Source of the DNA: Tsukamurella asaccharolytica
GTDB lineage: Bacteria > Actinomycetota > Actinomycetes > Mycobacteriales > Mycobacteriaceae
Reading direction: 5' to 3'
NCBI RefSeq assembly: GCF_007858435.1
Contig: NZ_VIGW01000002.1
Coordinates: 1-64,000, forward strand
DNA length: 64,000 nucleotides
The translations under genes were made by a program, and so were the position numbers. This document shows, piece by piece, positions 2,887 to 58,066 of the stretch. The notes under the pieces were generated by a model, which saw only the letters and a list, made by a program, of their open reading frames with translations, was not told the origin of the DNA and did no database searches. Within the stretch, counting starts at the first letter, position 1, and each line of letters starts with the position of its first letter.

Positions 2887-3312
2887 ATGAGCACCATCGC
2901 CCCCACCACCGCCCCCGCCCGCACCGACCGCCTGCCCGTGTGGAAGCACGGCGTCGGCGCCGCGGTCGGCGCCTCGGTCGCCACCACCGCGATCGCCGCC
3001 GTCGCGTCCGCCGCCGGCGTCAGCTTCGCCGGGCCCGACGGTTCCTCCATCCCCCTGCTCGGGTTCGCCCAGCTCACTTTTGTCTTCTCGCTGATCGCCG
3101 TGGGCATCGCCGCCGTGCTGGCGAGGCGCGCACGGCGCCCGCGCTCCACCTTCGTGCGCACCTGCGTAGTGCTGCTGGTGCTGTCGCTCGTGCCGGATCT
3201 GACCTTCGGGTTCGACGCGGCCTCCGCCGCGGTGCTGATCCTGACGCACCTCGTCGCGGCGGCGATCGTGGTGCCGGTGCTCGCCCGTCGCCTCACGCGG
3301 CACAATGGATAG
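2887..3312 (+). CDS. DUF6069-like small integral membrane protein
   Basis: This 141-residue protein has about four membrane helices (residues ~20-45, 58-78, 95-115 and 118-135). A GAGGAG ribosome site at 2876-2881 precedes the ATG. It resembles the actinobacterial DUF6069 family, whose function is unknown. Its TAG stop (3310-3312) is immediately followed by ATGACCGAC, the first codons of the XPB helicase. Before the element inserted, the helicase gene would therefore have started on the next base and been translationally coupled to this gene. The stop codon is also the first full codon of the 40-bp attachment repeat. Confidence 0.7.
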   Translation: MSTIAPTTAPARTDRLPVWKHGVGAAVGASVATTAIAAVASAAGVSFAGPDGSSIPLLGFAQLTFVFSLIAVGIAAVLARRARRPRSTFVRTCVVLLVLSLVPDLTFGFDAASAAVLILTHLVAAAIVVPVLARRLTRHNG

Positions 3313-3349
3313 ATGACCGACGGACCCCTCATCGTCCAGTCCGACAAGA
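3310..3349. repeat. attL: left copy of a 40-bp perfect direct repeat
   Basis: Bases 3310-3349 are identical to 7155-7194. They comprise the TAG stop of the upstream gene plus the first 37 bases of the XPB helicase gene. This copy leaves a dead 13-codon reading frame (MTDGPLIVQSDKR, stop at 3352-3354). The pair marks the ends of a site-specifically integrated element, because the right copy restores the helicase gene exactly. Confidence 0.92.
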
Positions 3350-3359
3350 GATAGGGCCG

Positions 3360-3416
3360 AAAACACGTCTACCAGCCATTTCTCCAGCGGAATGGTTCTG
3401 ACTGTCCTCGTGTTTT
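3360..3416. repeat. Inverted repeat AAAACACG / CGTGTTTT beside attL
   Basis: Eight-base arms at 3360-3367 and 3409-3416 are separated by 41 bases, just inside the left attachment repeat. It could be a binding site for an excision or recombination factor; no function is shown. Confidence 0.4.
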
Positions 3417-3435
3417 GTGAGGAGACGCTCCGTGT

Positions 3436-3454
3436 TGCGGGATTCTTGCGGGAT
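3436..3454 (+). promoter_or_regulatory. Left paired TGCGGGAT motif, candidate integrase arm site
   Basis: TGCGGGAT occurs at 3436-3443 and 3447-3454 (11-bp phasing), followed by CGG. The same doublet with the same spacing and orientation lies at 7065-7083. The doublets sit 86 and 71 bp from their respective core repeats. Tyrosine integrases with an N-terminal arm-binding domain bind such direct repeats, so I infer arm-type sites. Confidence 0.6.
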
Positions 3455-3542
3455 CGGAAGCCGCCCCGCGACCTGCAAAGATCATCGGCCATGATGCCGT
3501 TTTCGGGGACATGACGACCGCCCCTCCCCACCACCCCCGCGC

Positions 3543-3791
3543 ATGTCCCACCCCACGGGCAGGCTCGTGCACATGGATCAGCGCGCGCTCATCGCCCTCG
3601 CCGTCGCCCACGGCTGGCGGCTGGACACGTGCCGCCGCCACCTGCGGTTGATCCCACCGCCGTGCCGCCACGATCTGCCCGTGCTCGTGCTCGCGCGCAC
3701 GCCCTCGGATTGGCGGGGTACGCGCAACCTCGCCGCGCGCCTACGCCGCGCGGGCGTGCCCGTACCTCATCGGGGCGGTCGCTGCCCGTGA
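3543..3791 (+). CDS. HicA-like small basic protein
   Basis: This frame of up to 82 codons contains AHGWRLDTCRRHLRLIPP followed by ARTPSDWRGTRNLAARLRRAG. This matches the GW-(x)n-H-(x)n-TPSD-R-x(2)-N-x(2)-LRRA pattern of small HicA-like (dsRBD-fold) proteins found on actinobacterial mobile elements. The ATG at 3573 (MDQRALIALAVAHGW) may be the true start. The TGA (3789-3791) overlaps the GTG of the next gene by 4 bp. HicA proteins are mRNA-interferase toxins, whose conserved histidine may correspond to the H of RRHLRL here. Toxicity is not demonstrated, and many phage-type members have no known function. Confidence 0.55.
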   Translation: MSHPTGRLVHMDQRALIALAVAHGWRLDTCRRHLRLIPPPCRHDLPVLVLARTPSDWRGTRNLAARLRRAGVPVPHRGGRCP

Positions 3792-4120
3792 CCGAGCGGA
3801 GCGAGGTGCCGCAGGCGACCTCGCCGACCGTCCCCCTCCACCGCGCCCGCGCGGCCCTGTCCGCGCTCATCGCCGCGTGCGAGCGCGAGCCGATCACCCT
3901 GACCCGCAACGGGCACGCGGTCGCCGTGCTCGTGCACCCGAGCGTGGTCGCGGTCGAGGACGAGCCCATGCTCACCCCGTCGGCACGCCCTGGCCGCGCT
4001 CGACGGGGCGTTAACGAGAGCATGGGGGATCGTCCCCGCCCTCGATACGCGCTGGTGGAGAGCCAGCGAAGTAATGGCACTACATCGACATCCGCTGGAG
4101 ATCGTGCAGCGCGTCAATAG
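3788..4120 (+). CDS. Phd/YefM-like antitoxin, probably frameshifted after ~60 codons
   Basis: The GTG at 3788 overlaps the stop of the HicA-like gene. Residues ~13-58 read VPLHRARAALSALIAACERE followed by PITLTRNGHAVAVLVHPSVV, the classical prevent-host-death antitoxin fold that binds DNA and covers a toxin. After about codon 62 this frame turns low-quality (Arg/Pro/Ser-rich). The +1 frame from 3981 instead reads plausibly (RHALAALDGALTRAWGIVPA, then LDTRWWRASEVMALHRHP) to a stop at 4176-4178. A one-base slip in the CCCC run near 3973-3978 would explain this. Phd antitoxins normally pair with Doc, YoeB or PIN toxins rather than HicA-like ones. Confidence 0.55.
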   Translation: MTERSEVPQATSPTVPLHRARAALSALIAACEREPITLTRNGHAVAVLVHPSVVAVEDEPMLTPSARPGRARRGVNESMGDRPRPRYALVESQRSNGTTSTSAGDRAARQ

Positions 4121-4902
4121 CGGTCGATACCTGGGTAATAGCCGAGGAACGAGAGGACAGCGAGGTCAATGGTCGTAGAGGGAGTGTTCACGAAACCACT
4201 CGACCCCACCCGAGGAATATAGTTCAGCACGCCCCCTGCATAGTCCCAGCATTCCTCTGGCCTGTCGAGGTCCACAGCGACTGCACTCAATCCCGCCTCC
4301 CAGACCACCGCCATTTTGCCCGGGTCTGGAACGTACTCCGCCCCTTCAAGAATGCTTTCGAACTTGCCATGTTCAAACTCGTCCGGCGCGAATATCCCCG
4401 TGCGCTCACTCCACGTCCGAATCTCGTCAACAGGCACGATCATGTCCCCATGGCTCTGAATGACAATCTGAAACGCTCCGTGCACCAGACGGTAGAAGTC
4501 CTGTACATCTTGTGGCAACCGCGTCCCGAATCTAGAGGTTTCGATTTCCTTTCGTGAAACATTAGGGAAACCGAAACAAGCAATCCCGCTATCTGCGTCC
4601 GACGTGGAGTCGGGCCCCTGAATCAGATAGAGTAGACCATAATTCGTTTCACGCCCCTCCTTAATCAGGGAAACTGGTGCCACGAGCGCGTGTTCGCGGA
4701 TGACCTCGCGTAGGAATTTGAAGCTGTCGGGAAGCACCTCTTGCCAGCGATCGGCTACCAGAGCCGCGTTCTCACGAGCGTCGCGCGCCTGGCCCCTCCA
4801 CCAAGTTTCAGCGTATGCATCCGAATCGGATAGCTCGATCCGATCTGCAACTCCTCGAACTCCTTCGACATTTACACGTTCGACCAGCTGTGCCGTGTCG
4901 AT
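4114..4902 (-). CDS. Uncharacterised acidic protein, weakly SUKH/SMI1-KNR4-like
   Basis: The coding frame is open to 4902 (262 residues) and has lower GC than its surroundings. The motif LPQDVQDFYRLVHGAFQI is reminiscent of the conserved segment of SUKH (SMI1/KNR4) immunity proteins, but the match is weak. The frame lacks ATG, GTG or TTG until GTG 4737, which has no ribosome site. A strong GAGGAGGG (4914-4907) instead sits four bases before ATC at 4902-4900, just after the stop of the DUF5642-like gene. I therefore extend the gene to that ATC as an inferred non-canonical or mutated start. The function is unknown. Confidence 0.5.
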   Translation of the reverse strand: MDTAQLVERVNVEGVRGVADRIELSDSDAYAETWWRGQARDARENAALVADRWQEVLPDSFKFLREVIREHALVAPVSLIKEGRETNYGLLYLIQGPDSTSDADSGIACFGFPNVSRKEIETSRFGTRLPQDVQDFYRLVHGAFQIVIQSHGDMIVPVDEIRTWSERTGIFAPDEFEHGKFESILEGAEYVPDPGKMAVVWEAGLSAVAVDLDRPEECWDYAGGVLNYIPRVGSSGFVNTPSTTIDLAVLSFLGYYPGIDRY

Positions 4903-4918
4903 AGCGCCCTCCTCGGAT

Positions 4919-5709
4919 CTACGTTGTAGTCACCAGCCTAACCGCTTCGGAGAGTAGCTCCTTCGCGAAGGTGGGATCGATGGGGTTAGCCTGCGGCTTG
5001 TAAGAAGGGTCGGAAGTGGCCAGAACGACGACGGCATGATAGTCGTCGGTCCAAGCTGCAAACGTAAAATTGTCGACTGTCTCCTTAGCCACAGTTCGCG
5101 TAGTGGTACGAGTAGCCACAGTGTCGACTCCTGCCACCTTTGGCGACTCGGCAGGCGAGATGATGCTGTAGCTGCCGTCGCCGTACGCAAGCGACATTCG
5201 TTCGCACGCCTGATCGCGAGGCGTACGCGATGCGTTACTTGAAGGAATCTGCTGAGCGTTAATACTATACCGCACCCCCTCAATCTGAGCATTCACTGTG
5301 CTGATTTTCGCGCCAAGCAGGCGCTGCGAATTGAATTTCTGCTTCCCCTGGCAAGTCGAAGGAGTGACGACTGCCTCATCACTTGCCGCGAGTGCCGTCA
5401 CGTCGGCCTGCCCGAGGGTCTTCTCACTCTTCGCTACATGCGTGCCTACAGGGAACTTCGAGACTATCGACTCGACCTTCTGCGGCGTGAAGGTGGCCGA
5501 CTTCAGCTGGTCATCGTTGTCGCTATTCAGCAACCAGACGACACCCCTGCCCCAGCGACGATCGCAGCTGCCATTCCCGCTGCGACCCAAACTCTAGACT
5601 TTCGCGCCAAAGCAGAACTCGCTTCAATGCCTGACGACCCTAGGTCGTCAGAAGCCGAATGCTCGATGGGTTCGGTTTCGTCGCCGCTCCCAGGGACTTC
5701 GTTGCTCAC
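4919..5709 (-). CDS. DUF5642-like membrane-anchored protein, interrupted by a frameshift
   Basis: Translation from GTG 5709 gives an acidic N-terminus (SNEVPGSGDETEPIEHS), a basic patch and one membrane helix (VWVAAGMAAAIVAGAG). The frame then breaks near 5541-5556, between two CCCC runs. The other frame continues VVWLLNSDNDDQ and then a ~200-residue extracellular domain with paired Cys (PSTCQGKQKF, DQACERM) ending at 4919. TFTPQKVESIVSKFPVG recalls the actinobacterial DUF5642 domain. The GTG overlaps the TGA (5706-5708) of one upstream frame and has GAGGAG in front. Either it is a recent pseudogene or the base run was miscalled. The function is unknown. Confidence 0.6.
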
Positions 5710-5740
5710 GTGTTCATCTCCTCGATCATTGGCTGGTGGG

Positions 5741-6270
5741 TCAAGATGTCGCACCCACCAGAACGCCACCTGCCGCAACAGCACCAGCGCCAGCGGCAGC
5801 CGCCCCCCGCACCTGCGGCACCCGCGCCAGCGGCACCCGCCCCCGCAGCGCCAGCTCCAGCAGCTCCCGCGCCTGCTGCACCTGCGCCGACAGCCGCACA
5901 GATTCCGGCCGTTGCCACTACGCAGGCCGTACCTGCAACCACCAGTGCTCCCACACCAACGCCGACCGCAACCTTCTTCCAGTTGCGACTCCACCATCCA
6001 GCCTTGGCAGGCTCAGGAGCTGCTTGAGTCGTCGGAGCACGCACGTCAGCAGGCTTCTCAGTCTGTGTCGGCTTCGGCGGAGCTACAGGAGGCGTCTCCG
6101 TTGGCGCCTGCGGCACCTCAGTCACGGTGGGCTGCGCGGGGGTGCCTGTCGGATAGTCCTGTGTCGGTTTCGGGTATTGCTGCGGTGCTGTGGTCTCAGG
6201 GACCTGCGGGGCAGTAGTCTGCGGGGCAGTCGCGGTGGTGAGAGTTGGGGTGACGACAGTCGCCGTGAAG
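5741..6270 (-). pseudogene. C-terminal fragment of a Pro/Thr-rich single-pass membrane protein
   Basis: Reading from the deletion point near 6267, the fragment is a Thr/Pro/Gln stalk (TTATAPQTTAPQVPETTAPQ), then WWSRNWKKVAVGVGVGALVV with a membrane helix, then a Gly/Ala repeat (GAAGAGAAGAG). In one frame the tail becomes Arg/Cys-rich and ends at 5706. Shifting frame at the CCCCCC run (5803-5808) gives a far more natural tail (AAAGAGAVAAGGVLVGATS) that stops at 5741. The 5' part is missing: it meets the truncated integrase head-to-head. What was lost (for example an enzymatic domain) cannot be seen. Confidence 0.5.
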
Positions 6271-7157
6271 TCAAGACATCTGCCGTGCGTTCCTGGATCG
6301 CAGCTCTCGTGGATCAGGAGGTGGGCGTGCCCAGCATCGAGAACGCCCACGGCCTACTCCGCATGGTGCTCGATGCAGCAGTGGAGGATGGGCGGCTCCC
6401 CCGCAACCCCGCTGCGGGGATCATGCTGCCGAAGCGCACCCACCCTGATCGCGGCTACCTCTCCCACCAGCAGCTTCGTGAGTTGGCGGAGCACTGCGAG
6501 GATGATGGGCTCGTGGTGTTGACGTTGGGCTACACAGGGCTCCGATGGAGCGAGATGTCCGCGCTCCGCGTCATGGACGTGGACCTGGCGCGGCGACGGA
6601 TCAACGTGAGCCGCGCTGTCGTGGAGGCGAGCAAGCTCGACTGGAAAACACCCAAGAGCCACGAGCGCCGCAGCGTGCCCTTCCCCCAGGCGCTCGCCGA
6701 CCTACTCGCCGACCATGTGAGCGGCAAGGGGCGGGAGGACTTGGTGTTCACCAACACGCGGGGGACCGTGCTGCGGGTCGGCACGTGGCGCAACAGAGTG
6801 TTCCGCCCCGCCCTCGCTCGATGCCGCGCCGACGACGAAACCTTCCCCACCTTCACACCGCACGACCTACGTCACACCGCTGCCTCGCTTGCCATATCAG
6901 CGGGCGCAAACGTCCTCGGCGTCCAGAGGATGCTCGGGCACTCGAAAGCCTCGATGACGCTCGATGTGTACAGCGACCTCTTCGACTCTGACCTCGACGC
7001 CGTAGCAGCGAACCTCGACGCCGCGATCACCGCGCTCGACGCTGACGCTCCCGCCGCCAACTCCTGCGGGATCGCTGCGGGATCGGAGCCTGACTACGAG
7101 CCTTTCACCTGGGACCCTGGACCTTCTACCAGCACAGATACGGACGGAGACAACTAG
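6267..7157 (+). pseudogene. int: Tyrosine-family integrase, N-terminal domain deleted
   Basis: Homology begins at EVKTSAVRSWIAALVDQ, part-way through the core-binding domain, and runs through a complete catalytic domain. Arg is in YTGLRWSEMSALR, Lys in KTPKSHERRS, the HLRH box in FTPHDLRHTAAS, the second His in RMLGHSKASM and the Tyr nucleophile in LDVYSDLF. The arm-binding N-terminus (about 70-100 residues in related actinobacterial integrases) is absent. The upstream frame is only a shadow of the minus-strand gene. The gene ends on the TAG at 7155-7157, which belongs to the attachment repeat. The Ser/Thr/Asp-rich tail encodes the paired TGCGGGAT motif. Confidence 0.85.
7065..7083 (+). promoter_or_regulatory. 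Right paired TGCGGGAT motif, candidate integrase arm site
   Basis: TGCGGGAT occurs at 7065-7072 and 7076-7083 inside the 3' end of the integrase gene, followed by CGGA as in the left doublet. Phasing (11 bp) and orientation match 3436-3454. Confidence 0.6.
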
Positions 7158-7194
7158 ATGACCGACGGACCCCTCATCGTCCAGTCCGACAAGA
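7155..7194. repeat. attR: right copy of the 40-bp direct repeat
   Basis: Identical to 3310-3349. Its first three bases are the integrase stop codon and its remaining 37 bases are codons 1-12 (plus one base) of the XPB helicase, so the target gene keeps its full protein sequence. GGAG at 7145-7148, on the element side, now acts as the likely ribosome site for the helicase. Confidence 0.92.
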
Positions 7195-8825
7195 CGCTCC
7201 TACTGGAGGTCGACCACGAGCTGGCGGGCGCCGCGCGCGCCGCGATCGCGCCCTTCGCCGAGCTCGAGCGCGCCCCGGAGCACGTGCACACCTACCGCGT
7301 GACGCCGCTCGCGCTGTGGAACGCGCGGGCCGCCGGGCACGACGCCGAGCAGGTGGTGGACGCCCTCGTCAGCTTCTCCCGCTACCCCGTGCCGCAGCCG
7401 CTGCTGGTCGACGTGGTCGACACCATGAGCCGCTACGGACGGTTGCAGCTGGTGAAAAGCCCGGTGCACGGACTCACGCTCGTCTCGCTGGACCGGGCGG
7501 TGCTGGAGGAGGTGCTGCGGCACAAGAAGATCGCCCCGATGGTGGGCGCCCGCATCGACGACGACACCGTCGTGGTGCATCCGTCCGAGCGGGGCCATCT
7601 CAAGCAGCTGCTGCTCAAGGTGGGCTGGCCCGCCGAGGACCTCGCCGGGTACGTGGACGGCGAGTCGCACCCCATCGCGCTGGACACCGAGTCCGACCCG
7701 TGGGAGCTGCGCGACTACCAGAAGGTCGCGGCGGATTCGTTCTGGCTGGGCGGTTCCGGGGTCGTCGTCCTGCCGTGCGGCGCGGGCAAGACCATGGTCG
7801 GCGCGGCCGCGATGGCGCGGGCCCAGGCCACGACCCTGATTCTGGTGACGAACACCGTCGCGGGGCGGCAGTGGAAGCGGGAGCTGCTGGCGCGGACGTC
7901 GCTCACCGAGGAGGAGATCGGCGAGTACTCGGGCGAGAAGAAGGAGATCCGCCCGGTCACCATCGCCACCTACCAGGTGCTCACGCGGAAGTCTAAGGGC
8001 GAGTACAAGAATCTCGACCTGTTCGACTCGCGCGACTGGGGCTTGATGATCTACGACGAGGTGCACCTGCTGCCCGCGCCCGTCTTCCGGATGACCGCCG
8101 ATCTGCAGTCCCGCCGGCGACTCGGGCTCACCGCGACCCTCGTGCGCGAGGACGGCCGCGAGGGCGACGTCTTCTCACTCATCGGGCCGAAGCGCTACGA
8201 CGCGCCGTGGAAGGACATCGAGGCGCAGGGGTGGATCGCGCCCGCCGACTGCGTGGAGGTGCGCGTGACCCTCACCGAGAACCAGCGCATGCAGTACGCG
8301 ACCGCCGAGCCCGACGAGCGCTACCAACTGGCGTCCACCGCCCCGACGAAGGTGGCGGTGGTGAAGTCGATCCTCGAGCGACACCAGGGCGCCCCCACGC
8401 TGGTGATCGGCGCCTACCTGGATCAGCTGGAGCAGTTGGGCCGCGAGCTCGACGCCCCGGTCATCACCGGCTCGGTGAAGAACAAGGACCGCGAGGCGCT
8501 GTTCGACCGGTTCCGGGCCGGCGAGATCTCCACGCTGGTGGTGAGCAAGGTCGCGAACTTCTCCATCGATCTGCCGGAGGCTTCCGTCGCCGTGCAGGTC
8601 TCGGGCACGTTCGGCTCGCGGCAGGAGGAGGCGCAACGCCTCGGTCGGCTCCTGCGCCCCAAGCACGACGGCGGCACGGCGCACTTCTACTCCGTCGTCT
8701 CGCGCGACACCCTCGACGCCGACTACGCCGCGCACCGCCAGCGCTTCCTCGCCGAGCAGGGCTACGCCTACCGCATCGTCGACGCCGACGACATCCTCGG
8801 CCCCGCCATCGGCGAAGCGAACTGA
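7158..8825 (+). CDS. XPB/ERCC3-like DNA repair helicase (SF2)
   Basis: This 555-residue protein corresponds to mycobacterial ercc3/XPB (Rv0861c), a 3'-5' ATP-dependent DNA helicase. It has an N-terminal damage-recognition-like domain (~1-175), then Walker A PCGAGKTM (~206), the DEVH box (~300), motif III GLTATLVREDG containing the RED triad, and a C-terminal helicase domain with QEEAQRLGRLLRP (~495). The first 12 codons and the start codon lie in the attachment repeat, so the gene now follows the integrase instead of the DUF6069-like gene. Its native upstream context has been replaced, and expression may now depend on element sequences. It converges with the HNH gene; the stops are 1 bp apart. 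Confidence 0.95.
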   Translation: MTDGPLIVQSDKTLLLEVDHELAGAARAAIAPFAELERAPEHVHTYRVTPLALWNARAAGHDAEQVVDALVSFSRYPVPQPLLVDVVDTMSRYGRLQLVKSPVHGLTLVSLDRAVLEEVLRHKKIAPMVGARIDDDTVVVHPSERGHLKQLLLKVGWPAEDLAGYVDGESHPIALDTESDPWELRDYQKVAADSFWLGGSGVVVLPCGAGKTMVGAAAMARAQATTLILVTNTVAGRQWKRELLARTSLTEEEIGEYSGEKKEIRPVTIATYQVLTRKSKGEYKNLDLFDSRDWGLMIYDEVHLLPAPVFRMTADLQSRRRLGLTATLVREDGREGDVFSLIGPKRYDAPWKDIEAQGWIAPADCVEVRVTLTENQRMQYATAEPDERYQLASTAPTKVAVVKSILERHQGAPTLVIGAYLDQLEQLGRELDAPVITGSVKNKDREALFDRFRAGEISTLVVSKVANFSIDLPEASVAVQVSGTFGSRQEEAQRLGRLLRPKHDGGTAHFYSVVSRDTLDADYAAHRQRFLAEQGYAYRIVDADDILGPAIGEAN

Positions 8826-8826
8826 C

Positions 8827-10059
8827 TCACGCCGCCTGTTCCGGCGCTCTGGACCGGTGGACATGTCCGCTCGGTGTTCGGGTCTCGACGGTGTGCCGTC
8901 CGCTCGGGTCGTCGATGACTGCGCTGTGCCAGCCGGTGGCTTCCTTGGCGTAGTTGCATGCGGCGCACAGGCCCTGCCCGTTCGCGAACTCTGTCTGTCC
9001 GCCGTGCGCGTGTGGGGTGATGTGATCGATGTGGCTGATGGGTGCGTCGCAGTACGGGGTGCGGCAGTACCGGTCCCGTGCTCGGATCATCTCCGCCAGC
9101 CCGTCGGGGAAGCACCGCGCCCTCGAGTCCATCCCGACCACCGCACCCGACTCGGGCGCGATGAACAACCGTTTGACCCAGGCGACGCCCGCGGCGGTGG
9201 CTTTCCCGATGAGGTTGCGGGCGATCTCCGCCGGCATCGTCCCGCCGCCGTCCAGGTGCGCCGTCCCGGGCCGGTCACCGAGGAGCACTGTCGCCGGGAT
9301 TGTCAGGTTCACCAGCACCGGCTGCCCTTCCGCAGCTGCCCGGCCGGTGAGCCGGGCGAACGCGGTATCGGCCATGACCTGCCCTCGGGTGCGCACGTCC
9401 CCGGCGACCCCGACCACGGTGTCCGCGTGCCGGCGCAACGCCGCGTAGACGCCGACGCCCTGCGCGACCGGCAGCAGTAGCGACACCCGCGCCATGCCCT
9501 CGGGCAGCGGGCGGATGGTCACCGTCCGGTCCTTCTCCGCCCACGCGTCCCGATCGACGGTGCCCCGCCCGTCCAGCGCGTACGCGGCCTGCTTCACGCG
9601 GGCGGCGAGCTGCTTGAGGCCCATGCCCGCGAGCGTCGTCGGGTCGGAGCACAGCTGCTCGTCCGCGCGGCGCCGGTCCGCGTCGTCCAGGTGCGATAGG
9701 CCGGCGACGATCACCGGGACGGCCTCCGGTGACAGGTCGCCCTCGCGCAGCCGGGCAAGGGTGTGCGGCAGGTGCTTGTCCAACTCCACCGCCCGCGCCA
9801 GGAACTTCGCGCCCGTGTGCGGCGACAGATGCAACGCCAACCCGACCTCCGCGGCCACCCCCTGCTGCCACCGGTCCTGCGGCAGCCCGGCGGCGATCCG
9901 CTCGCAGACCCGCTCCCGCAGCAGCTCGACCGCTAACCGGTACTGCTCGAACACCGTCCGGCAGCGCCGCTGTTCCATCGAACGCAACCGCTCGGCCGCA
10001 CCGTCGCCAGACCCCGGATCGGGCGGCCGATCATCCTCTACGCCAGCATCTTCCTCCAT
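8827..10059 (-). CDS. 13E12-repeat-type HNH endonuclease (DUF222)
   Basis: This 410-residue protein has a DUF222 region (~30-300) and a C-terminal HNH nuclease motif: RYCRTPYCDAPISHIDHITP then HAHGGQTEFANGQGLCAACN. The Cys pairs bind zinc and the His-Asp-His core cuts DNA. This is the 13E12 family, present in many copies in mycobacteria and relatives and often linked to mobile DNA. Here it immediately follows the XPB gene in convergent orientation. Its precise role is unknown, although the catalytic residues look intact. Confidence 0.9.
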   Translation of the reverse strand: MEEDAGVEDDRPPDPGSGDGAAERLRSMEQRRCRTVFEQYRLAVELLRERVCERIAAGLPQDRWQQGVAAEVGLALHLSPHTGAKFLARAVELDKHLPHTLARLREGDLSPEAVPVIVAGLSHLDDADRRRADEQLCSDPTTLAGMGLKQLAARVKQAAYALDGRGTVDRDAWAEKDRTVTIRPLPEGMARVSLLLPVAQGVGVYAALRRHADTVVGVAGDVRTRGQVMADTAFARLTGRAAAEGQPVLVNLTIPATVLLGDRPGTAHLDGGGTMPAEIARNLIGKATAAGVAWVKRLFIAPESGAVVGMDSRARCFPDGLAEMIRARDRYCRTPYCDAPISHIDHITPHAHGGQTEFANGQGLCAACNYAKEATGWHSAVIDDPSGRHTVETRTPSGHVHRSRAPEQAA

Positions 10060-57124: not shown

Positions 57125-58066
57125 CTACACATCCTTGGCGACCTTGAGCTGCTCGATGATGGCCTTGCCGGTGGCGGCCATGTCGTCGCGGCCGATCGGG
57201 ATGACCAGCATGGCGTAGGTCTGCGGCGCGGACGCGATGACGATGACCGTGATGTCGTCACCCGCGACGGTGAGCCTGTCGCCCGTGACCAGGATCTTGC
57301 CGGTGACCTTCGCGGCGGGCACGCCGTCGACGGTGATCGACTCCGCCGCCGACTGCTCCACCCGCTTCGACGTGACGTTGAGGTAGCCGGCGCCATCGGC
57401 GATGCACTGGATCATCCGCGAGGCGGCGTCCTTGGGGTCGAGCTTGGAGTTGAAGTTGGTCTGGCCGACCTCCGCGCCGGCCTGCCAGGGCTGGCCGTCG
57501 TCCATCGACTTCTGCAGGCCCGCGGCGGCAATGCTCTGTGCGTAGACGGTGTAGCTCTCCTTCTCCCATCCCGGCGCGGCCGAGACGGGGAAGGACAGCG
57601 GGCCCGAGGCCACTCGGTCGGTGATCTCGGAGGCGAGGCCCGTGCCGGGCACACCGCAGTCGCCGCCCGTGCTGGGCGTGACCGAGGTCGGGCCGGTGCT
57701 GGGCCCCGCGGAGGCATCGCTCTCGTTGCTGTTCGAGTTCACCACGAGCAGAACCGCGGCGATGGCGACGGCGATCACGACAACCACCGCGATGCCGACC
57801 GCCGCGTACAGGCCAGTGCGGTTAGGCTTCTGCGGCGGCTGCCCGGGGTACTGCTGGCCCGAGTACTGCTGGCCCGGGTACTGCTGGCCCGAGTACTGCT
57901 GGCCCGGGTACTGGTAGCCCTGCTGCTGGTATCCCTGCTGGTACGGCTGTTGCTGCCCGTATCCGTACTGGTAACCGCCCTGGGCGTACGGATCGGGCCG
58001 CGCATACGGGTCTGGCTGCGCGTTGGGATCGGGCTGCTGCCCGTACGGATCCTGCGGGTTGCTCAT
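57125..58066 (-). CDS. Pro/Gln/Tyr-rich single-pass membrane protein with extracellular domain
   Basis: This 313-residue protein has a disordered cytoplasmic N-terminus (DPYGQQPDPNAQPDPYARPD, then five-residue GQQY(S/P) repeats), one membrane helix (~88-110), a Ser/Thr linker and a ~180-residue extracellular domain with Cys residues (GGDCGVPGTG, RMIQCIADGAG). No enzyme motif is seen. Its C-terminal ~65 residues are duplicated in the fragment just upstream. It is coupled by ATGA overlap to that fragment and lies next to the TIGR04338 gene. Confidence 0.75.
   Translation of the reverse strand: MSNPQDPYGQQPDPNAQPDPYARPDPYAQGGYQYGYGQQQPYQQGYQQQGYQYPGQQYSGQQYPGQQYSGQQYPGQPPQKPNRTGLYAAVGIAVVVVIAVAIAAVLLVVNSNSNESDASAGPSTGPTSVTPSTGGDCGVPGTGLASEITDRVASGPLSFPVSAAPGWEKESYTVYAQSIAAAGLQKSMDDGQPWQAGAEVGQTNFNSKLDPKDAASRMIQCIADGAGYLNVTSKRVEQSAAESITVDGVPAAKVTGKILVTGDRLTVAGDDITVIVIASAPQTYAMLVIPIGRDDMAATGKAIIEQLKVAKDV
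57848..57912. repeat. 15-bp tandem repeat inside a coding region
   Basis: About four units of GTACTGCTGGCCCGR encode the GQQY(S/P) repeats of the membrane protein. Copy number could vary between strains. Confidence 0.75.

Follow-up and report, generated by a model that had tools for sequence, protein, structure and literature searches.

The vast majority of the actinomycete integrative and conjugative elements (AICEs) that use tyrosine integrases lie in the 3' ends of tRNA genes, a single integrase subfamily being excepted in the survey of these elements (PMC3218068). Elements that insert at a protein gene's 5' end and keep the target usable have been described too, namely SXT at prfC and the dusA islands, where a new promoter was demonstrated by lacZ fusion (PMC8409611, PMC2791158, PMC4482086). 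Here, we analysed the first 64,000 nucleotides of contig NZ_VIGW01000002.1 of Tsukamurella asaccharolytica (the window), in which the gene of an XPB/ERCC3-type DNA repair helicase stands directly behind an integrase gene. We conclude with considerable confidence that the DNA before the helicase gene derives from a tyrosine-integrase element which uses the first 37 nt of the XPB gene as its attachment site, and of which a deletion has left only a remnant.

An earlier note on this DNA had described a perfect 40-bp direct repeat with an integrase and foreign-looking DNA between its copies, and this description was confirmed. The two exact copies are separated by 3805 bp and could not be extended on either side, and a repeat search of the window found no other exact copies of this sequence, which forms the longest exact direct repeat present. 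(The second longest is a tandem 38-bp exact repeat with 30-bp spacing at 57846-57913.) GC content drops to 55-58% at ~4000-5750, inside the element, against 62-79% in 500-base segments lying wholly outside it (14 kb profiled), and the integrase frame carries a Phage_integrase domain (PF00589). The claim that the insertion lies at the 5' end of XPB and that the right repeat rebuilds the coding sequence exactly was likewise borne out for the protein, as the integrase stop is followed directly by the XPB ATG at 7158 (TAG-ATG), from which the full frame is restored at attR, and the encoded helicase is 99.3% identical to XPB of T. tyrosinosolvens.

The site was compared across a sample of 16 Tsukamurella genomes, one per species. 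The XPB-start core was found in a single copy in 14 of them and in two copies in the genome of the window (G000) and that of T. spumae DSM 44113 (G012). When the window flanks were joined at the repeat, they aligned without interruption to genome G006 over the whole 2056 query bases at 92.8% identity, and in this genome a DUF6069 gene lies directly before XPB, as it does upstream of the insertion in the window. Alignment with relatives, which the earlier note had proposed, thus yielded the empty site. T. tyrosinosolvens NCTC13231 also has an uninterrupted XPB site; there, DUF6069 is separated from XPB by a TetR gene and one hypothetical gene, with the TAG stop of the upstream gene directly before the XPB ATG. 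Family-wide, the core pattern matched 180 of 401 genomes (the remaining 221 have diverged XPB starts, outside its reach), and two copies occurred only in the same two genomes, as listed in the per-genome table.

The proposed search for islands at the same XPB start was equally productive, revealing a second element of ~22.2 kb in T. spumae (C14:4824-27027). The first 220 bp of the two elements are 88% identical, starting exactly at the first repeat base, and their integrase ends are 74% identical at the DNA level. The T. spumae core comprises 37 nt (ATG...AAGA) with one mismatch, and its right copy is without the TAG, so that the TAG match within the window repeat may be incidental. Both elements share the target, the left end, the paired motifs described below and a HicA-like gene (58.8% over 80 aa). 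In contrast to the window element, that of T. spumae has different cargo and encodes a full-length integrase of 417 residues, an Xis-like helix-turn-helix (HTH) protein (phrog_66 6.2e-11) together with a repressor-like HTH protein, a primase-like protein (phrog_28894 1.9e-17), a resolvase (PF00239 2e-41) and a D12-class methylase (PF02086 7.8e-20). Their 74-77% identity shows that the two elements diverged long ago, which does not date the insertion in the window. G012 gave 27 matches to the FtsK/SpoIIIE-type Tra family PF01580 at E<=10, none of them inside the element, and those of its frames that were scanned (not all were) gave no capsid, portal, large terminase or tail match; we therefore call it neither an AICE nor a prophage. 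Its only packaging label, a terminase-small-subunit family (2e-9), fell on the Xis-like HTH protein. In the window element, no FtsK was found in the general Pfam scan, which included no search aimed at FtsK, and the scanned frames held no capsid, portal, large terminase or tail genes.

At the element ends, the motif TGCGGGAT is repeated with an 11-bp period. In the 64 kb it has four copies on the + strand (3436, 3447, 7065 and 7076) and none on the other, and the exact pair TGCGGGAT-N3-TGCGGGAT occurs at four places in the 16 genomes, namely both ends of both elements, while a reversed control gave none. Arm-type sites are a known feature of lambda-type integrases, and by analogy with these the pairs are probably arm-type integrase sites. 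The stretch between the left core and the left pair (3370-3460) lies in the 88%-conserved left end common to T. spumae. A hairpin was considered there and rejected, as the small one present is no better than shuffles (z -1.09; 31 of 200 fold as well).

The picture of a small working element given in the earlier note was not upheld, as the integrase is incomplete. Its match to the 417-residue T. spumae protein starts only at residue 128 of the latter (77% over 293 residues), leaving ~127 N-terminal residues absent, and exactly where this homology breaks off, a fragment of a cargo gene begins on the opposite strand, truncated at the same point. This fragment, which we call effector-like as a guess from its context, matches a frame of G013 (C1:2195106-2195537) at 73% over query residues 30-185, and at 69% over 118 aa. 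In G013, a DUF5642 gene and then an SMI1/KNR4 (SUKH) gene come after the gene of a 528-aa protein, and the gene order in the window resembles this, with the fragment, a DUF5642 gene (47% identical at the protein level to its G013 counterpart) and a weakly SMI1-like gene, the last not clearly homologous to the G013 SUKH gene (best E 0.25). Both genes would have lost their 5' ends in a single deletion. Thus, with its integrase incomplete, the locus is read as the remnant of a tyrosine-integrase element, which is probably immobile, and not as a working one.

The course of events may be pictured as follows. Int would have bound the paired TGCGGGAT arm sites on both sides of the attachment site of the free element (attP), and recombination at a core identical to the XPB start would have produced an attR at which the XPB coding frame is complete again and follows int directly. 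One later deletion would then have removed the 5' ends of two divergent genes, int and the effector-like one, together with everything between them, which, if the element was built like that of T. spumae, would have included xis, repressor and replication genes, and would have left it unable to move itself. Integration would also have cut XPB off from a conserved promoter box, probably a leaderless one, after which the helicase gene would have relied on transcripts reading through the int remnant and on an element-supplied start site. Several points weigh against this account: only two elements are known at the XPB site, the role of the paired motifs is argued by analogy, and the deletion in the window may have preceded or followed insertion.

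The last point leads to a different history, in which a donor suffered the deletion and then passed the remnant on, together with adjoining XPB sequence, by homologous recombination, so that Int never inserted it in this lineage. Homologous exchange through XPB, a gene highly conserved in the genus, is feasible without a working Int; this route, however, is one step longer, and no possible donor carrying this remnant was found in the 16 genomes, so that we consider it rather unlikely. Nor does the repeat itself settle the timing. The insertion had been judged fairly recent from the perfection of the repeat, and this may be so, although a perfect repeat is weak evidence of recency: zero differences in 37-40 nt limit the divergence between the copies only to less than ~8% (rule of three), and of the two copies only the left is free of coding constraint.

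It could also be envisaged that the small element is still mobile, through either its own shortened integrase or a helper integrase acting in trans. The att cores and the arm pairs are intact at both ends, the window integrase keeps the aligned catalytic domain (catalytic residues were judged by eye), and excision is reported for an AICE with a stop codon inside int (PMC3218068). Against this stand the lack of any xis-like match among the element frames scanned and the lack of a close second integrase in the same genome, where the best remaining match to the T. spumae integrase reaches only 43% identity. Moreover, tyrosine integrases bind arm sites, and in part the core, through their N-terminal region, and the first ~127 residues of Int are those missing here. 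Continued mobility is thus quite improbable, and a deletion-scarred, immobile remnant remains our preferred interpretation. That there was no insertion at all, and that a repeat so short and perfect arose through local copying of the XPB start or through misassembly, is next to impossible in the face of the foreign composition between the copies, the empty site in G006 and the same repeat, homologous ends and position in the independent species T. spumae; the last of these, with the single-copy core in relatives, rules out an assembly duplication.

Although the helicase protein is rebuilt intact, the region before its gene is not, a point that the earlier note missed. The sequence GGCACAATGG, at -14 to -5 from the XPB-start ATG, reads the same at all 14 sites compared (12 uninterrupted genomes and both attL junctions), and at none of the positions between -45 and -15 do these sites all agree. 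Its CACAAT ends 6 nt before the ATG and is probably a leaderless XPB promoter box, standing where a -10 region would lie if transcription began at the start codon itself; in M. tuberculosis, 26% of the genes that have a primary start are reported to give leaderless transcripts (PMC3898074). The box is absent from both attR junctions, and integration thus leaves it at the far left end, so that an otherwise intact helicase gene is, unusually, separated from what appears to be its own promoter. We infer that XPB now depends on transcription through the int remnant. Shine-Dalgarno energies, computed against a 16S tail, were -8.2 and -6.9 kcal/mol at the two attR junctions versus -3.1 in 10 of the 14 native-type sites. 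Gain of a Shine-Dalgarno sequence at attR was nevertheless rejected as a clean marker, the result being mixed.

The promoter reading has its own difficulties. The box is proposed from its conservation, and the 14 sites are non-independent: by eye, seven share one upstream-gene end and three the DUF6069 end, with only the remaining four (G001, G007, G008 and G011) having differing upstream ends. These same four overlap the attR junctions in Shine-Dalgarno energy (-9.8 in G001 and G011, -6.4 in G008, -6.0 in G007). CACAAT departs from the mycobacterial TANNNT consensus as reported (PMC3898074), and none of five XPB starts from other genera has it at -12 to -7. The box is also absent from G004 and G014, and, with no integrase adjoining XPB in G004, the helicase gene tolerates its loss.

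These two genomes were considered as further cases of insertion at the same XPB position and rejected, as the XPB start of G004 is preceded by further genes (acetyltransferase-like and NTF2-like, frames read by eye) and by no integrase. The last ~28 bp before the G004 XPB resemble the right end of the element (88% over 66 bp including the core), a similarity too short to be called a scar; the likeness of the upstream end in G004 and G014 is possibly an old scar or chance. Just upstream of XPB, the two genomes have a common alternative sequence without the GGCACAATGG box (L028, 5180-6697, in G004; L072 in G014). In the search for attP, one degenerate form of the core had no exact match in viral_contigs, and MT836665.1, the sole phage-collection match to the left end, was rejected as attP because it is an XPB gene in an unverified contig. 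All integrases matched in 1886 phage records were below 60% identity.

Leaving the XPB pair aside, we examined the 14 integrase loci of the genus with the best scores for a tRNA gene within 150 bp of the aligned 3' end. The contrast drawn by the earlier note between this target and tRNA genes applies to nine of them (Pro 2, Leu 4, Ala 2, Arg 1), and fails for the other five (L082, L090, L091, L092 and L093). The two closest, in G004 and G013, are 49% and 42% identical to the XPB integrases and end beside tRNA-Pro(CGG). Taken together with the predominance of tRNA sites in the AICE survey (PMC3218068), this makes a switch from a tRNA to the XPB start plausible on the branch leading to the XPB integrases. 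A core shared between tRNA-Pro(CGG) and XPB was sought and rejected, the longest common exact word of 6 nt being uninformative. More speculatively, and only as a tentative idea, a tRNA-targeting branch retargeted to the XPB start codon may have made integration a promoter switch, in which the leaderless helicase gene would lose its own -10 box and come to lie downstream of int as its partner, and which would set the helicase level while the element is integrated and release it on excision, and which the deletion would have frozen in the window. The pair of elements and their tRNA-Pro relatives allow tests of whether integrases have moved from a tRNA target to a protein gene, and the XPB genes with and without the conserved start-site box in otherwise syntenic relatives form a natural experiment.

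Table 1. Features at the XPB start and within the inserted element, in window coordinates.
Feature	Position	Strand	Evidence or remark
DUF6069 gene, upstream of insertion	2887..3312	+	PF19545 2.3e-37; TAG stop opens left repeat
GGCACAATGG, putative -10 region of leaderless XPB promoter, left at left end	3299..3308	+	conservation
Left direct repeat, attL core	3310..3349	+	exact 40-bp repeat; DUF6069 TAG stop and first 37 nt of XPB
Leftover of XPB start, 13 codons (MTDGPLIVQSDKR, then stop)	3313..3354	+	sequence; same junction in G012
Paired TGCGGGAT, 11-bp period, putative left arm-type sites	3436..3454	+	
HicA-like small protein gene	3543..3791	+	phrog_2089 2e-12; PADLOC HicA-like 1.2e-9
Phd/YefM antitoxin-like frame	3788..4120	+	PF02604 3.2e-7, profile positions 3-42 of 74 (N-terminal half)
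Weakly SMI1/KNR4-like (SUKH) protein gene	4114..4737	-	PF09346 0.023, below cut-off
DUF5642 protein gene	4919..5590	-	PF18702 8.9e-14
C-terminal remnant of effector-like gene, 5' part gone	5796..6263	-	homology to G013 frame
Deletion junction, effector-like remnant/integrase remnant	6263..6267	.	two homologies abut
Tyrosine integrase, C-terminal part only	6267..7157	+	PF00589 1.5e-22; TAG stop opens right repeat
Paired TGCGGGAT, putative right arm-type sites, inside integrase 3' end	7065..7083	+	
GGAG, Shine-Dalgarno-like, 8 nt before XPB ATG, element-supplied	7146..7149	+	-8.2 kcal/mol
Right direct repeat, attR core	7155..7194	+	TAG stop of integrase frame and first 37 nt of XPB
XPB/ERCC3-type helicase gene, 555 codons, intact	7158..8825	+	PF16203 9.1e-45, PF13625 5e-39

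Of the remaining contents, the Phd-like frame looks broken after its matched half-domain, and Pfam and phrog scans of the element frames gave no xis-like and no replication-protein match among those scanned. The effector-like fragment matched in eight of 201 genomes, comprising its own, G013 strongly and six weakly (E 3e-4 to 1e-3). The 528-aa protein of G013 has GmrSD_C as its only Pfam match, below cut-off (E 0.22), with an HNH-like look by eye; it appears secreted and, with the DUF5642 and SUKH-type genes that follow (L068, 5024-8244), looks like an effector/immunity arrangement. The SMI1-like protein matched in two of the 201 genomes (its own and G015, the latter at 36%) and at a weaker second place in its own genome, and had no match in the plasmids searched. 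This second relative lies at C42:19949-20434 (within L070, G000 C42:14000-30000), with an integrase match near it at C42:19291 and another at C42:37346. Beyond the element, a DUF222/HNH endonuclease-type gene (8827-10059) is convergent to XPB; the T. tyrosinosolvens XPB also adjoins an HNH-motif gene.

A search of open-licence PMC text with a few word combinations ('ERCC3' not among them) returned no paper that names XPB as an attachment site or describes this element. Insertion at a 5' end with target rescue is already known; the target, the lineage and the promoter type appear to be new, adding the 5' end of a protein gene, and that of a DNA repair helicase, to actinobacterial integrase sites that are otherwise mostly tRNA 3' ends. 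AICEs are likewise actinobacterial integrative elements with mostly tyrosine integrases; they differ in lying mostly in tRNA 3' ends and, as defined in the survey (PMC3218068), in having Int, Rep and Tra together, whereas the T. spumae element has no FtsK match. The dusA islands, as described, resemble the XPB elements in occupying the 5' end of a protein gene between direct-repeat att sites, in leaving the target expressible and in their sizes, from 4758 bp up (PMC4482086, PMC8409611), and are set apart by 21-bp semiconserved repeats, an altered N-terminus and a different, Proteobacterial host and target. The SXT/R391 integrative and conjugative elements at prfC similarly use a tyrosine integrase at the 5' end of a protein gene and bring new upstream signals (PMC2791158, PMC8409611). 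These are conjugative and Gammaproteobacterial and give prfC a new N-terminus, whereas the first 12 XPB codons are identical here, and the replacement of the promoter, reported for SXT at prfC, would apply to the XPB element by inference.

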